Source of the DNA: Candidatus Methanoperedens sp.
Lineage (GTDB): Archaea; Halobacteriota; Methanosarcinia; Methanosarcinales; Methanoperedenaceae
Assembly: GCA_012026835.1 (NCBI GenBank)
Contig: VEPN01000021.1
Location: 1 to 49,809, forward strand
Direction: 5' to 3'
Length of the DNA: 49,809 nucleotides
Shown here piece by piece: positions 11,590 to 17,550 of the stretch (position 1 is the stretch's first letter; every line of letters begins with the position of its first letter). Made by a program: the position numbers and the translations under genes. A model generated the notes under the pieces. The model made no database searches and was not told the DNA's origin. It saw only the letters and a list, made by a program, of their open reading frames with translations.

Positions 11590-12453
11590 ATGAACAAAAG
11601 TCTTTCAATCTTACTAATATTTGGAATATTTGCTATCTTATCTATTAGCGGTTGCACTCAGCAACAACCAGCCGTAAATCAAACGCCAGGAAAACAAACA
11701 CCAGTAGAACAACCTGCAATAGAACAACCAGTAATTAAACTCTCCTCTGAAAATTATATTGTGGATAACAGTGGAAAAACTCTCTATATGTTTGCAAATG
11801 ATATTATGGGAGATAGCAAATGCACAGGCAGTTGTATTAATATATGGCCTGTTTTTTACCAGGAAAAAATAGCTGTTTCTTCTGGACTTAACTCTTCTGA
11901 TTTTGGAGCAATAACAAGGGACGATGGAATGGAACAAACAACCTATAAAGGATGGCCATTATACTATTTCTCCAGTGATATAAATCCAGGTGATATTAAA
12001 GGAGAAGGATTTAACAAGTTATGGTTTATCGCCAAACCAGATTATACAATTCTTATCACAGATAAAGACAATATGAAATACATAGTCGATGCAAAGGGAA
12101 ATACCCTGTATAACTTTTCTAAAGATATGCCTGACGTGAGCAATTGCAAAGGTAACTGCTTACAGACCTGGCCTGTATTTTATGCTGAGAATATTGTTGC
12201 ACCATCTATTATGAATATTTCTGATTTCGATGTTATAACTAATAGTGAAGGGTCTAAACAAACAACATATAAACACATGCCATTGTACTATTACATTAAT
12301 GACACAAAACGTGGTGATACTAATGGTCAGGGTGTTATTAACGCCTGGTTCGTTGTGGATCCTGAGGCAAAACCATTAACTATACCAGTATCAACGACCA
12401 TTAAACCGACACCTGCCGCAACACAAATAACCTACGGAGGTGGCGGATACTGA
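11590..12453 (+). CDS. Secreted lipoprotein with two Yx(FWY)xxD repeats (COG4315-like)
   Basis: An N-terminal hydrophobic stretch ends with the lipobox LSISGC, so the protein should be exported and lipid-anchored. A Pro/Gln/Glu-rich linker follows, then two homologous units of about 105 residues. Each holds GKTLYMFANDxxG-type sequence (Y-x-F-x-x-D), a C-x3-C pair, WPVFY, TTYKGWPLYYF and W-F-hxxP; the second copy reads GNTLYNFSKD and TTYKHMPLYYY. The family is a secreted repeat of unknown function. GGGAGTGA precedes the ATG. The four paired cysteines suggest disulfides or metal binding. Confidence 0.85.
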   Translation: MNKSLSILLIFGIFAILSISGCTQQQPAVNQTPGKQTPVEQPAIEQPVIKLSSENYIVDNSGKTLYMFANDIMGDSKCTGSCINIWPVFYQEKIAVSSGLNSSDFGAITRDDGMEQTTYKGWPLYYFSSDINPGDIKGEGFNKLWFIAKPDYTILITDKDNMKYIVDAKGNTLYNFSKDMPDVSNCKGNCLQTWPVFYAENIVAPSIMNISDFDVITNSEGSKQTTYKHMPLYYYINDTKRGDTNGQGVINAWFVVDPEAKPLTIPVSTTIKPTPAATQITYGGGGY

Positions 12454-12578: not shown

Positions 12579-13958
12579 CTACTTTATCAGCCTAAATATC
12601 CCGTCTGTCAACTTTTCAAAAGGCTTAACAACAAAAAAGGCATACTTACCTAATCTCTTCCTTAGACCGAATTGAGCCTGACCTTTCAGGATTGCAAATT
12701 TCATCTTGGTCTCAGAGAACTCAGCATCGAAGATAAGTACATGATCCGAAATAAGTCCTCCAGACGAAACCCAATCTTTCTTGATCTTATGTTTAACCCT
12801 CTCAAACAATGCAGTCCCGGGGAGCGGATATGGCATGGTGAATGAAAGGTAATCCAGTGGAAGGGAAGTGGCAAATCGAATTGTATCAAGGACAGTCTCG
12901 TTAGTCTCGCCCGGATAGCAGAGGATAAAGAATGCACCAGTTCGAATCCCTACGTCGTGGGCCGAATTAACTGCTTTTCGTGCAGCTTCAACTGTTATCT
13001 TCTTGTTCATAGTTTTAAGTATCAGGTCGTTACCCGATTCGATTCCAAACAATATTCTGTCGCATCCTGCTTCCTTTATAATTACAGCCAAATCCTTATC
13101 GATTGAATCCACCCTGCCCAGACATTCCCATTCAAAATCGAGCCCTCTTTTTCTGATCTCTTTGCAGATTTCAAAAACACGTTTCTTATTAAGAGTGAAT
13201 ACATCATCAGCAAAATGAATCCGGCCATAACCGAATGAGAGCGCCTCTTCTACTTCATCCAGGACATTTGAGGGTGATCTTTCGCGATATGACACTCCAA
13301 ATACTGCATTACTGCAAAACTCGCATCTGAAGGGGCATCCTCTGGTTGTAAAGACAGTAGTGGTTGAAGACCCTGTTTTTCTCATCCCGTAGTCGATATA
13401 TTCCTTGTTAGGAAACAGGTCTCTTGCTGGAAACGCTATTCTATCAAGGTCATCTTCTAATTTACCCGGCTCTGTATAAACAATTTCCCCCGCTTCACTA
13501 CATCTCACCCAGCTATTGTTATTTTTTCTATATAAGATACCTGGAACAGATTCTGGACTGCCTCCATTCTCATATATCCGGAGGATATCCAGCATGGTTT
13601 TTTCCCCTTCACCTCTCACCACTATATCAAAATCATTCATGAAAGATGCGGGGTCGCTTGATGGAAGTGGACCTCCTGCAACAAGGAGATCACATCTATT
13701 TCGTAATTCTGTTGCGAATTTGATGCTTTCATGACGCATGCTCACCATACAATATATCCCAACGACATCTGCACGAGAATTCTTTGCTTTTTTCAGCGCT
13801 TCCTCTTTTGCCATAAAAGTGCAGTCCAGAATATCGACATCATATCCATTGTTCCTGAGGCTTGACGCAACGTAGCCAAGACCAAGGGGTGGGAACCGAA
13901 AAATTGATCTATTGTTCCAGTAATTAAAATACGGGTATATGAGAAGAACTCGTGTCAT
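12579..13958 (-). CDS. B12-binding-domain radical SAM protein
   Basis: The N-terminal ~130 residues form a cobalamin-binding-like Rossmann fold (RVLLIYPYFNYWN, PPLGLGYVASSLRNNGYDVDILD, VRGEGEKTMLDIL). The radical SAM core follows with TTRGCPFRCEFCSNAVFG, giving the CxxxCxxC cluster ligands, then GIESGNDLILKTMNKK and PYPLPGTALFERV. It belongs to the large BchE/MiaB-like group whose members methylate or rearrange substrates. No SPASM domain is apparent. Its 5' end overlaps the 274-residue unknown gene by 4 bp (ATGA), so the two are almost certainly cotranslated and may act on one substrate. Confidence 0.88.
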   Translation of the reverse strand: MTRVLLIYPYFNYWNNRSIFRFPPLGLGYVASSLRNNGYDVDILDCTFMAKEEALKKAKNSRADVVGIYCMVSMRHESIKFATELRNRCDLLVAGGPLPSSDPASFMNDFDIVVRGEGEKTMLDILRIYENGGSPESVPGILYRKNNNSWVRCSEAGEIVYTEPGKLEDDLDRIAFPARDLFPNKEYIDYGMRKTGSSTTTVFTTRGCPFRCEFCSNAVFGVSYRERSPSNVLDEVEEALSFGYGRIHFADDVFTLNKKRVFEICKEIRKRGLDFEWECLGRVDSIDKDLAVIIKEAGCDRILFGIESGNDLILKTMNKKITVEAARKAVNSAHDVGIRTGAFFILCYPGETNETVLDTIRFATSLPLDYLSFTMPYPLPGTALFERVKHKIKKDWVSSGGLISDHVLIFDAEFSETKMKFAILKGQAQFGLRKRLGKYAFFVVKPFEKLTDGIFRLIK

Positions 13959-14779
13959 TTTTTCGCACCAATTCTTATGTCATAGGCAAAATTTAGTATC
14001 CGCGGAGAAATAGAATATGCAATCCCGGACCATGCAAGGCGGTTTGCAACGAGTTCTCTTCCATAGAACATCCTTGATCCATGTATCCTGGAAAGTGTGA
14101 ATGTCAATTCATCATATGGATCAATGAATGAAACATCATCGCAAAAGGTTTCCTGCCATGAACCTATCGCATTCCCAACGAGATTTGTCCCCTCTGAATC
14201 GCAATAGGTGTCGAAATAGTTAGCTCCTTGCTCATTCATAAATATAACCTCCGTACATCCTTCATTTTTTATCCTCCTCAAATCTGTGCTGACATGAATC
14301 ATGCCATCAGTGCTTATCTCATAACCCACACTTGCCAAACCTGTAGATGCAACTTTTTCAAATCTTGTCTCCACTGAAAAAGCTCGTCTTATCACAATTG
14401 AACCCTTCTTAAGTAATTCTCTTGAAAAAGGATATTTTCGATGAAACCATGAAAGATATTCTTTTATCCTGCAAATAGTTCTGCTCTCAATCCTCCTACC
14501 TTTAACCACTATAATTTCTGCCAAGTTAAAATCGTAATCGATCTTCACATCAACCCTATCAGCAAATTTCTTGACTTTTATGCACCCACCTCCAGGGAAT
14601 ATGGTCTTTTGGCCGTACTTCAAAATGGGTACACCAAAACCAACACCTTCTTCAGACAGATCTTTGTTTCCATGAAAAAGTACTAGACCCTTTTGTATCC
14701 TGCATGAAGGATAAGTCTGTTTTTCTTTTTCAGGTTCTTTGATTTGGAGAGATATATCCCCTCCAATTTTAATCATCAT
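13955..14779 (-). CDS. Unknown protein paired with the radical SAM enzyme
   Basis: A soluble 274-residue protein with many short predicted beta strands (GFGVPILKYGQKTIFPGGG, VDVKIDYDFNLAEIIVVKG) and a conserved-looking middle IVIRRAFSVETRFEKVASTG. There is no signal peptide, membrane helix or recognised motif. It is the first gene of a two-gene unit with the B12-radical SAM protein (ATGA overlap). The beta-rich architecture recalls carbohydrate- or lipid-active proteins, but I cannot assign a family. Start is one of two adjacent ATG codons. Confidence 0.7.
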   Translation of the reverse strand: MMIKIGGDISLQIKEPEKEKQTYPSCRIQKGLVLFHGNKDLSEEGVGFGVPILKYGQKTIFPGGGCIKVKKFADRVDVKIDYDFNLAEIIVVKGRRIESRTICRIKEYLSWFHRKYPFSRELLKKGSIVIRRAFSVETRFEKVASTGLASVGYEISTDGMIHVSTDLRRIKNEGCTEVIFMNEQGANYFDTYCDSEGTNLVGNAIGSWQETFCDDVSFIDPYDELTFTLSRIHGSRMFYGRELVANRLAWSGIAYSISPRILNFAYDIRIGAKK

Positions 14780-15448: not shown

Positions 15449-15859
15449 ATGAGACTGGTTATAGACACCAATATTATTATATCCTCCCTCATATCTAACT
15501 CCAAACGTCGTTATATTTTAATGAATTCAAATATCGAATTTATAGCGCCGGAATACACTTTTACTGAACTTTTAAAACATTCAGATATCATCAAAAAGAA
15601 ATCAAAACTCACATCAGAGGATTTGCAATATGTAATGGATATGCTATTCTCTCGAATCACAATTTATCCAAAAGATGAATATGCCGATTGCTATGTTTAG
15701 GCTAAAGATATCATGAAAGACATTGATCCCGATGATGCTCCATTTATGGCGCTTGCTATGAAAACCAAAGTTGATGGGATATGGAGCGAGGATAAAGGAT
15801 TTCAAGAACAAAACCTCATAAAAGTATATACTACAAAACAACTTTTGGAGCTATTATAA
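15449..15859 (+). pseudogene. vapC: VapC PIN-domain toxin interrupted by an in-frame TAG
   Basis: The frame reads VIDTNIIISSLIS (first Asp), FTELLKHSDII (Glu) and reaches TAG at 15698-15700, codon 84. The same frame continues without further stops: DIDPDDAPFMALAMK (Asp) and IWSEDKGF (Asp), to TAA at 15857-15859, 136 codons, the normal PIN-toxin length. All four acidic residues are present only if TAG is read through. A GAG-to-TAG change is the simple explanation and would inactivate the RNase. Readthrough or pyrrolysine is possible but poorly supported. Confidence 0.8.
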
Positions 15860-15945
15860 ATATAGACCTGCGCCTGAAATAAATACAAAGTCTCTGCGAA
15901 CCGACAGAAATGCAAAAGCATCGAGCATCCCCGGATTTCCAATCC

Positions 15946-17550
15946 TCACTCAATCTTCGGCTTATAGAACAGAGTGACCCTGGCCTCTCCGGGAGGGACG
16001 TTCATCTTCCTGAAAAGCAGGTAATCGGGTGAAAGATAATGGGGTATATCCTCAAACGTGAACCAGTACCAGGACATCTTTGCGCTGTCAAGCCTCTTAT
16101 ACTCGCTGCCGAGCCGCTCCTGTACAATATCAGGTTCGTGGAGTTCATCAGTGTCCTTCACTACAATGAGGGGGGCATTAAGTTCAGCAGAATCGATGTT
16201 CACCTTCCATTTAACATTAGGATAATGGCGCAGGTACCACAGGAACTGGGTCTCTATCCCGTCATCAGCGACCTGTACCTCGGTTGACTGGTTACGGTAC
16301 TGCCTGGATGTTTCAGCTATCTTTCCCAGGAATTCAGAAAACCTCTGGGGAGGCTGTGCCGCCTGTATTAAAGGCCCTGCCGTGTTCGTATAACCATAGT
16401 AGTTCAGGAAAATGCTTGAATATACAAAATAAGAAGAACTCACAACAAGAAAAACGACAGCCGCCGCCCGGACCTTTGGGTTATATATTATTTTTCCTGA
16501 CAGTACCTCCCCGATATAAGCTCCCGCGATAAGCACCAGGGGCAGCAGGGGGTTAAGAACTAACCACGGTACTTTTTCCTGAATATAGGAATAAACTATC
16601 AGATTGGCCATTGCCCAGTATCCCAGAAAAATCATGAGAATGGCGTTCTTCCTGTAATAATGGAAAATCCCGGCTATCCCGAAAACCAGTACCGGGAGTT
16701 CATAAAGCGCGATTATCGGGATATAGAAATACAACGGGCCGCCTATGCGCTGTATCGAGTGCATCTGGTACCAGTGTGATACTGCTTTTACAAAAGCAGC
16801 TTGCGTGCCGTTAAGATCGAGCAATTTTCCCGTATAATAAAGTGAGAATATTACAAGAACAGCAGAAATGATAAAAGAACCCTCTGCAATTAGAATTAAT
16901 GTTCCTGTATCACGGTTCCTGATTTTTGCGATCAGGCCCCTGTACCATCTTTCCCTGACGATGAACAGAATCAGGAACAAAACCATAAGCGCCATTATTA
17001 TATACGCATTCTCTTTAAGTGCCGCCATTGAAGCAAGGGCGACCGCACCTATAAACAGGTAAAAAATCCGCAGGATAGAATACCCTTTTCCTGCAAGTCC
17101 TTCCGCATATTTGACAGCACATACCAGCGCCAGCAGGGTGAAGAAAGAGATGAAAATATCTTCCCTGTAAAAGCGGGAGTAATACAGGAACGATGAAGAC
17201 AGGGCAAAAAAGAAAGCGCTGATTACAACCCCGGATTTTCCAATATACTTGCGCAGCGGCACAAGTAAGAATAGCATCGCCCCGCCAAAAACTGCCGGCA
17301 GGAGGCGGGATGCGTATATGGTGTCCCCGTAATGCCTGTAAATTTCAGATGTCACGTAGTACATGAAAGGGCCGTGAAATGCAGGGTCATAGGAATAAGT
17401 GCCGTCATTGAACAATTTATATGTGAAATAACCAACGGCAGATTCATCGTGGTGGAAAACCCTTTCATCAAGATGGTAGAACCGCAGGAAAAAAGCAAGG
17501 GCAACTATAAGAATAAATACAAAAACTAAAACAATATCCTTTTTATTCAT
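15946..17550 (-). CDS. Agl23-type membrane glycosyltransferase-like protein (TIGR03663)
   Basis: A polytopic protein of 534 residues with about 10-12 hydrophobic helices and a C-terminal soluble tail. After TM1 comes FHHDESAVGYFTYKLF, the Asp-Glu motif of GT-C fold enzymes on the outer face, and SRFYREDIFISFFTLLAL follows in a later loop. This matches archaeal proteins annotated as flippase-activity-associated Agl23. It likely acts in S-layer or lipid-linked glycan assembly. It stands alone, transcribed away from moaD. Confidence 0.85.
   Translation of the reverse strand: MNKKDIVLVFVFILIVALAFFLRFYHLDERVFHHDESAVGYFTYKLFNDGTYSYDPAFHGPFMYYVTSEIYRHYGDTIYASRLLPAVFGGAMLFLLVPLRKYIGKSGVVISAFFFALSSSFLYYSRFYREDIFISFFTLLALVCAVKYAEGLAGKGYSILRIFYLFIGAVALASMAALKENAYIIMALMVLFLILFIVRERWYRGLIAKIRNRDTGTLILIAEGSFIISAVLVIFSLYYTGKLLDLNGTQAAFVKAVSHWYQMHSIQRIGGPLYFYIPIIALYELPVLVFGIAGIFHYYRKNAILMIFLGYWAMANLIVYSYIQEKVPWLVLNPLLPLVLIAGAYIGEVLSGKIIYNPKVRAAAVVFLVVSSSYFVYSSIFLNYYGYTNTAGPLIQAAQPPQRFSEFLGKIAETSRQYRNQSTEVQVADDGIETQFLWYLRHYPNVKWKVNIDSAELNAPLIVVKDTDELHEPDIVQERLGSEYKRLDSAKMSWYWFTFEDIPHYLSPDYLLFRKMNVPPGEARVTLFYKPKIE

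Follow-up and report, generated by a model that had tools for sequence, protein, structure and literature searches.

A B12-binding radical SAM gene of Candidatus Methanoperedens overlaps the gene of a partner protein with a predicted galactose-mutarotase-like fold

AprD4, a radical S-adenosylmethionine (SAM) diol-dehydratase of the apramycin pathway, acts on a pseudodisaccharide, paromamine, together with a partner protein, AprD3, which is an NADPH-dependent reductase according to the available part of the source (PMC5461906). HpnJ of hopanoid biosynthesis is described as giving a cyclitol ether in a step that follows those of HpnI, a glycosyltransferase, and HpnK, a deacetylase (PMC12583986). 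Here, we compare these systems with a gene pair located in a stretch of 49,809 nucleotides from Candidatus Methanoperedens sp. (assembly GCA_012026835.1, contig VEPN01000021.1), which we refer to as the window. The pair consists of a gene for a B12-binding radical SAM enzyme, here called rSAM, and a gene for a protein of 274 amino acids, here called the partner (Table 1).

Both genes are located on the minus strand, the partner first and rSAM second, and the TGA codon of the partner shares bases with the ATG codon of rSAM. A sequence-only reading of the window had described an ATGA overlap between a B12-radical SAM gene and a partner gene of 274 codons, and both open reading frames were found where that reading had placed them. 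The overlap is not a chance feature, since the same kind of overlap was found again in relatives from several phyla, and it suggests that the 2 genes are translationally coupled.

To study the relatives, 2 partner profiles, A1 with 11 rows and A2 with 24 rows, and an rSAM alignment of 21 sequences, A3, were used. Among 50 partner genes in 49 non-redundant loci, 45 were followed on the same strand by an rSAM match at a distance of at most 439 bp (redundant loci outside this tally: L070-L074, L076, L083, L084, L090-L098, L100, L102, L109-L121 and L123-L136). Of the 45 linked pairs, 32 had a 4-nucleotide overlap in the rSAM frame (25 ATGA and 7 GTGA; junctions checked by script). The linked pairs include L153, where the rSAM match ends after about 58 codons, and L103, where the match begins 439 bp on and in another frame. 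Two of the 5 partner genes without rSAM were located at a contig end (L028 and L160), one was a second copy in genome G005 with 427 bp to the contig end (L027), and in the other 2 (L106 and L107) the partner match was itself truncated, in assemblies full of short frames. Outside the tally, rSAM was the next gene in all 8 additional Chloroflexota loci with short flanks. Three small partner fragments were also left out; a piece of an rSAM match adjoined one of them (G117: L099 with the piece, L101 without) and was missing from the third (L122, 43 positions, in the L082 genome).

The expectation that the partner should always adjoin a B12-radical SAM gene thus nearly holds, with 5 departures among the 50 genes. 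The partner was not found to be common without the radical SAM gene, which had been named beforehand as the observation that would speak against the pairing, and we consider the pairing of the 2 genes to be well supported. A mirror-tree comparison of 37 of the 45 linked pairs gave a distance correlation of r = 0.919, raised partly by shared species history, as compared with a maximum of 0.335 in 1000 label permutations. Broken or partial pairs (L021, L089, L103, L105, L108, L153, L163, and L165) were excluded from this comparison, and the truncated rSAM of G030 was kept out of the tree. The trees were inferred with FastTree and read without support values. In both trees, the Dehalococcoidia member was found next to the Methanoperedens/ANME-2 group, consistent with a joint transfer of the 2 genes.

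It was also noted that L105, L106, and L107 (G108, G134, and G140, all from one other genus) contained mostly short frames and a partner gene that was split or truncated, probably through assembly indels. At L153:8479-9803 (G561), the rSAM frame following the partner breaks off, and the following stretch contains an open frame of 168 amino acids. The second partner paralog in G005 (L027:428-1255) is about 30% identical and is preceded by a GT2 gene and by a DUF420-like gene of divergent sequence; a nucleotidyltransferase-like gene adjoins as well. In the actinobacterial loci L077:8828-13210 and L089:8442-12752, the pair is followed by 2 further, different rSAM genes, one of them on the opposite strand, such that 3 are found in a row. 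The extra genes in L077 contained B12-binding and radical SAM domains according to Pfam.

Members of the partner family are rare and scattered over Methanoperedens, ANME-2, Methanothrix, Asgard archaea, Actinomycetota, and Chloroflexota. A single-sequence search identified the partner in 10 of 60 genomes, all of the same genus, and the A1 profile identified it in 10 of a sample of 392 genomes from the phylum, the genome of the window being included in both counts. A single-sequence scan of the named genome collection found no partner; the A1 profile recovered 20 loci there, from Methanoperedens, ANME-2, Methanothrix, other Methanosarcinales, several Actinomycetota, and one genome each of Lokiarchaeota, Dehalococcoidia, and Thermoleophilia. 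With A2, the partner was present in 6 of 396, 11 of 227, and 18 of 350 genomes in the phyla of the Thermoleophilia, Lokiarchaeota, and Dehalococcoidia genomes, respectively, each count including the genome around which the search was centered. No relative was found in the plasmid and viral collections. The few, scattered matches across phyla suggest that the family is old or widely transferred, yet rare.

The partner had no match in Pfam, NCBIfam or the PDB sequences, and the best E-value of the 24 family members against Pfam was only 0.019. The partner profile matched one PDB sequence with an E-value of 2.9, which was judged meaningless. The AlphaFold2 model of the partner, inferred from the 11-row alignment (pLDDT 85.6, pTM 0.83), contained 18 strands, which agrees with the earlier description of the protein as beta-rich, and a helical insertion at residues ~100-134. 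The top Foldseek match of the model was HI1317 (1jov) with an E-value of 6.5e-5 and a probability of 1.00, and further matches included GH129, GH2 beta-galactosidase domains, and YeaD. By VIA-align, the best match was 3dec (GH2) with a Z-score of 15.0 over 193 residues at 3.1 Å. Matches to GH2, GH174, GH38, GH36, and polysaccharide-lyase chains were obtained, and 49 of the 50 matches listed were carbohydrate-active enzymes, as judged by their titles. The overall fold of the model is that of the galactose-mutarotase-like supersandwich, and we predict that the partner has this fold of carbohydrate-active enzymes. The absence of a known motif, claimed in the sequence-only reading, is accordingly correct for the sequence but not for the modeled structure, the fold of which is known.

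In the A2 alignment, the 24 members of which are down to 23% identical, 12 positions were invariant: E44, G45, G47, G49, E183, F189, W208, F227, G240, E242, W250, and G252. The aldose 1-epimerase/mutarotase enzymes have a conserved catalytic histidine and glutamate; in A2, none of the columns that are invariant, or almost so, is a histidine. The partner thus has its overall fold in common with HI1317, YeaD, and the beta-galactosidase domain, but differs from them in sequence (at most 14% identity among the matches listed), in the lack of an invariant histidine, in the helical insertion, and in having the rSAM gene as a near-constant companion.

The rSAM protein matched the B12-binding domain PF02310 with 65.7 bits (cut-off 32.1) and the Radical_SAM domain PF04055 with 107 bits (cut-off 29.5), and the motif C208-x3-C212-x2-C215 was invariant across the 21 sequences in A3. 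Class B enzymes have a B12-binding domain at the N-terminus and, after it, a radical SAM core with CxxxCxxC; by its domains, rSAM is such a B12-binding (class B) radical SAM enzyme, and it is predicted to bind cobalamin. No curated NCBIfam family includes rSAM: the scores for BchE, HpnJ, PhpK, ApyD, and AprD4 were all far below the cut-offs. The highest score was obtained for BchE (TIGR02026), the anaerobic Mg-protoporphyrin cyclase, with 161.6 bits, which is a third of the family cut-off of 481.35 bits; this model matched all 21 members of A3, as did 14 other models. The second-best match was HpnJ (TIGR03471; 149.1 vs. 577.6 bits), and models for HpnR and the ladderane rSAM enzymes were also among the matches.

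The NCBIfam score for AprD4 (NF033070) was 95.5 bits against a cut-off of 500, but the match to AprD4 in fold is strong. The AlphaFold2 model of rSAM (pLDDT 92.5) was best matched in VIA-align by AprD4 with paromamine (Z 33.1, 423 residues, 3.1 Å), followed by MgmA (Z 30.7), OxsB, CysS, and TsrM, and AprD4 was also the best PDB match in a search with the single sequence. The 2 enzymes are similar in size and in fold over their full length, and both have a dedicated partner protein, the substrate of AprD4 being sugar-like as far as the available part of the source describes it (PMC5461906). Their sequence identity is about 21%, and AprD3 is no supersandwich protein, unlike the partner. HpnJ resembles rSAM as a B12-radical SAM enzyme in a pathway with a glycosyltransferase, and was the best NCBIfam match for the rSAM protein of a relative at locus L061, described below; it differs in that a supersandwich partner was not found in the portion of the HpnJ literature at hand (PMC12583986).

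The partner matches of 17 Chloroflexota genomes were located inside open frames of 1194-1527 amino acids, and in all 6 fused frames with wide flanks, the partner was the C-terminal domain. The junctions of these 6 genes with rSAM consisted of 5 GTGA and one ATGA, and rSAM was the next gene in all 14 genomes that gave a locus (3 of the 17 gave none). The 2 fused proteins examined with Pfam, L168 and L169, both contained a GT2 domain. In a profile comparison, the Chloroflexota domain was related to A2 with a probability of 99.9 and an E-value of 8.6e-34, and the helical insertion was absent.

The converse pairing, by which rSAM would always occur with the partner, fails. Relatives of rSAM without the partner were present in G023 (81% identical, in a genome that is 74% complete) and G025 (58%), and a group with 50-52% identity was found without the partner in G018, G017, G008, G013, and G030. 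The A2 profile found no partner in any of 12 genomes of the same genus with a partnerless rSAM or without a partner match, and as a control it matched 12 of 12 in another genome set. In 4 of the 5 members of the 50-52% group, the rSAM gene was preceded by a gene for a protein of ~1400 amino acids and a nucleotidyltransferase-like gene, a label taken from sub-threshold Polbeta/NTP_transf_2 matches; in G030 the contig is cut. Two of the ~1400-amino-acid proteins were examined with Pfam, and were found to contain GT2, FG-GAP beta-propeller repeats, and a sub-threshold PMT/EpsG-like region. In Methanoperedens, L061:3863-8116 and L062:8622-12830 encode such proteins with GT2, a membrane region, and an FG-GAP propeller, adjoining nucleotidyltransferase-like and B12-radical SAM genes. 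A CobN/BchH-like chelatase had been considered for the ~1400-amino-acid gene and was rejected because of the GT2 and FG-GAP matches. The A1 profile did not detect the partner domain in the propeller proteins. A profile of the Chloroflexota domain gave marginal matches in a search of L058, L060-L065, and L153 (E 0.00067 in L153, 0.026 in L064, and 0.00078 on the other strand in L061), for which no relationship is claimed.

The middle region of the fused protein L168 matched the propeller protein L062 in blastp (27% identity, E 4.9e-25) and is GT-C-like, and the middle region of L062 had sub-threshold PMT/EpsG matches. Furthermore, the GT2 domains of the 2 proteins were 39% identical and the products of their upstream genes 28% identical (E 1e-47), and the Chloroflexota fusion group and the Methanoperedens propeller group were neighbors in the rSAM tree. 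The likenesses between L168 and L062 suggest a single operon type, nucleotidyltransferase-like/GT2-GT-C-X/rSAM, in which X would be the partner domain in Chloroflexota and a beta-propeller in Methanoperedens. Judged from these sequences, the module appears to take 3 forms: free in archaea and Actinomycetota, fused to a GT2/GT-C glycosyltransferase in Chloroflexota, and replaced by a beta-propeller in the Methanoperedens subclade.

Other genes for sugar or membrane functions were identified near the pair. A gene for a GT87-like membrane protein was located directly upstream of the partner in 3 actinobacterial loci, L077, L082, and L089; the proteins were 63-70% identical to each other, and only that of L089 exceeded the Pfam cut-off. 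In L088 and L152, GT87 genes that exceed the cut-off were located within ~3.5 kb on the other strand. The Asgard locus L162 contained 2 GT4 genes ~2 kb from rSAM, and in L085 an acyltransferase gene (PF01757, 74 bits) was located directly upstream of the partner. At L151:1-10000, rSAM was followed by a sugar-dehydrogenase-like gene (GSDH 77.1 bits), of which an 84%-identical copy was found in the related actinobacterial locus L088, and a COX1 gene was located beside the partner in L151.

In 18 of the 49 loci, a DUF420-like protein with 4 helices was encoded no more than 4 kb from the partner, a count that is not independent, as the profile was built from such neighbors; 3 of the 18 were weak matches (L077, L082, and L089) and one was a fragment (L023). 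The gene was located directly upstream of the partner and on the same strand in 12 loci. In the window, it is on the opposite strand to the pair at ~1.06 kb from rSAM, and is the only copy found in the genome. The score of its product against DUF420/CtaM (PF04238) falls short of the cut-off of 30.5 bits, which the protein of the actinobacterial locus L082 exceeds with 32.2 bits. We infer that the DUF420-like protein belongs to the unit.

The other neighbors in the window are more loosely associated with the pair. Relatives of the Lipoprotein_15 protein were found near the pair in 5 other Methanoperedens loci and in G391, and the cluster was present in 7 of 30 loci, including the window, which is a weak association. 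An Agl23-like gene for a flippase-associated GT-C protein (15946-17550, minus strand; TIGR03663 319.8 bits) is located upstream of the partner gene at a distance of ~1.17 kb. It was rejected as a member of the unit and its adjacency was taken as chance, since none of the 9 other Methanoperedens loci compared had a homolog beside the pair, some of these loci stopping only a short way from it. A PIN-domain-like frame between this gene and the partner gene (15449-15886, plus strand), which we take to be VapC-like, has an in-frame stop after 83 codons and looks like a decayed toxin gene.

Table 1. Features of the gene pair and its neighborhood in the window.
Feature	Position	Strand	Basis
Partner gene, 274 aa	13955..14779	-	No Pfam, NCBIfam or PDB sequence match; predicted mutarotase-like fold from model
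B12-binding radical SAM (rSAM) gene, 459 aa	12579..13958	-	Pfam domains, model
ATGA stop-start overlap	13955..13958	-	Sequence reads ...GCGAAAAAATGACACGA...
B12-binding domain of rSAM gene	13584..13895	-	PF02310
CxxxCxxC cysteines, [4Fe-4S]/SAM site, residues 208-215	13314..13337	-	rSAM alignment A3
DUF420-like four-helix membrane protein, 136 aa	11112..11522	+	20.7 bits, below Pfam cut-off
Secreted Lipoprotein_15 repeat protein	11590..12453	+	PF03640 162.5 bits

Taken together, the co-inheritance, the four-base overlap, the predicted folds, and the GT2 fusion point to a two-component system in which the partner would hold a sugar-bearing substrate and rSAM would modify it, a reading that we put forward tentatively and at somewhat less than an even chance. 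In such a system, the substrate would be a glycan, a nucleotide sugar or a sugar attached to a lipid. The partner would bind it in a cleft, the probable site of the invariant residues E44, E183, E242, W208, and W250, and would present it to rSAM. The 5'-deoxyadenosyl radical and the cobalamin of the enzyme may then bring about a C-methylation, a dehydration or a ring rearrangement, and the product could be used for a glycoconjugate of the membrane or the cell surface, in the making of which GT2/GT-C glycosyltransferases would take part. AprD4 with AprD3, and HpnJ after HpnI and HpnK, are the precedents for this reading (PMC5461906, PMC12583986). The suggestion in the sequence-only reading of an enzyme with a substrate-binding partner remains plausible, and is sharpened by the fold and the GT2 links toward sugar-bearing substrates.

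Several observations weigh against this two-component reading. The TM-scores of the first 5 Foldseek matches of the partner model were modest (0.34-0.50), and the non-carbohydrate periplasmic domain of YidC, which shares the supersandwich, was also among the Foldseek matches, so that the binding of sugar by the partner, as judged from its fold, is likely but not certain. The lack of an invariant histidine in A2 makes the usual mutarotase mechanism unlikely. For rSAM, Foldseek placed TsrM and MgmA above AprD4, and the sequence profile scored AprD4 (126 bits) level with the protein methylase MgmA (125 bits). Glycosyltransferases do not accompany the pair constantly: the only ones among 13 neighbor genes scanned, a selection from Methanothrix, other Methanosarcinales, and Asgard loci, were the 2 GT4 genes of L162. 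To these points are added the rSAM relatives without the partner and the lack of a homolog of the window's GT-C gene at the other Methanoperedens pairs compared. Furthermore, in a topology analysis of the fused proteins with our own scoring script, a C-terminus on the outside was favored by 0.6 to 3.1 units in 5 of 5 proteins, but GT2 was also placed outside in 4 of the 5, which makes these scores uninformative. The fused Chloroflexota domain may lie outside the membrane, and if it is outside the cell, a direct hand-over to a cytosolic rSAM would be impossible there.

An unlikely alternative is that rSAM, like other B12-radical SAM enzymes that act on lipids, modifies an isoprenoid chain or a polyprenyl carrier. 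The partner would then only stabilize rSAM or hold a lipid-linked head group in position. The presence of HpnR, HpnJ, and ladderane models among the NCBIfam matches and of the four-helix membrane protein near the pair is consistent with this, and GT-C enzymes use polyprenyl-linked sugars. On the other hand, no lipid-binding fold was among the top matches of the partner model, the best VIA-align match of rSAM is a sugar enzyme, and the partner is joined to a protein with GT2 in the Chloroflexota fusions. We consider it improbable as well that the partner is an enzyme in its own right, such as an epimerase, a lyase or a glycosidase-like enzyme, that acts before or after rSAM in the same pathway without physical contact. 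The 3 invariant glutamates and 2 invariant tryptophans look catalytic, the G005 paralog has no rSAM over the 427 bp to the contig end, and the Chloroflexota domain is part of a GT2-containing protein, all of which would suit a separate enzyme, but the tight overlap and the strict co-inheritance are better explained by a shared complex than by a common pathway alone.

A modification of a tetrapyrrole or heme by a BchE-like rSAM together with a CtaM/DUF420-type membrane protein seems very doubtful. Its main support comes from the DUF420-like genes beside the pair in distant lineages, as DUF420 includes CtaM, a proposed heme O/A chaperone according to the available part of the source (PMC4958251). 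BchE is the best NCBIfam match of rSAM and is shared by all members of A3, and COX1 adjoins the pair in L151. Nevertheless, the BchE score is far under the cut-off, the DUF420-like protein of the window is also below its Pfam cut-off, the COX1 adjacency was examined in L151 only, and the partner fold and the GT2 fusion point to sugars.

Searches of open-licence PubMed Central papers returned no literature on the pair, the supersandwich partner or the fusion. Radical SAM enzymes with partner proteins are already known. It is possible, though we regard it as rather doubtful, that these genes belong to an undescribed radical pathway for the modification of glycans or glycolipids in archaea and bacteria, in which a B12-radical SAM enzyme with a sugar-recognizing supersandwich module would yield a modified surface sugar that has so far not been observed chemically. 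Of the many B12-radical SAM enzymes, few have known substrates. For this family, a near-constant partner with a predicted sugar fold and natural fusions to glycosyltransferases narrow the search for the substrate to sugar-bearing molecules, and make the pair a concrete candidate for purification. If the sugar-based reading is true, we would predict that glycans or glycolipids undergo a new radical modification in methane-cycling archaea, including the anaerobic methane oxidizers, and in Asgard archaea.

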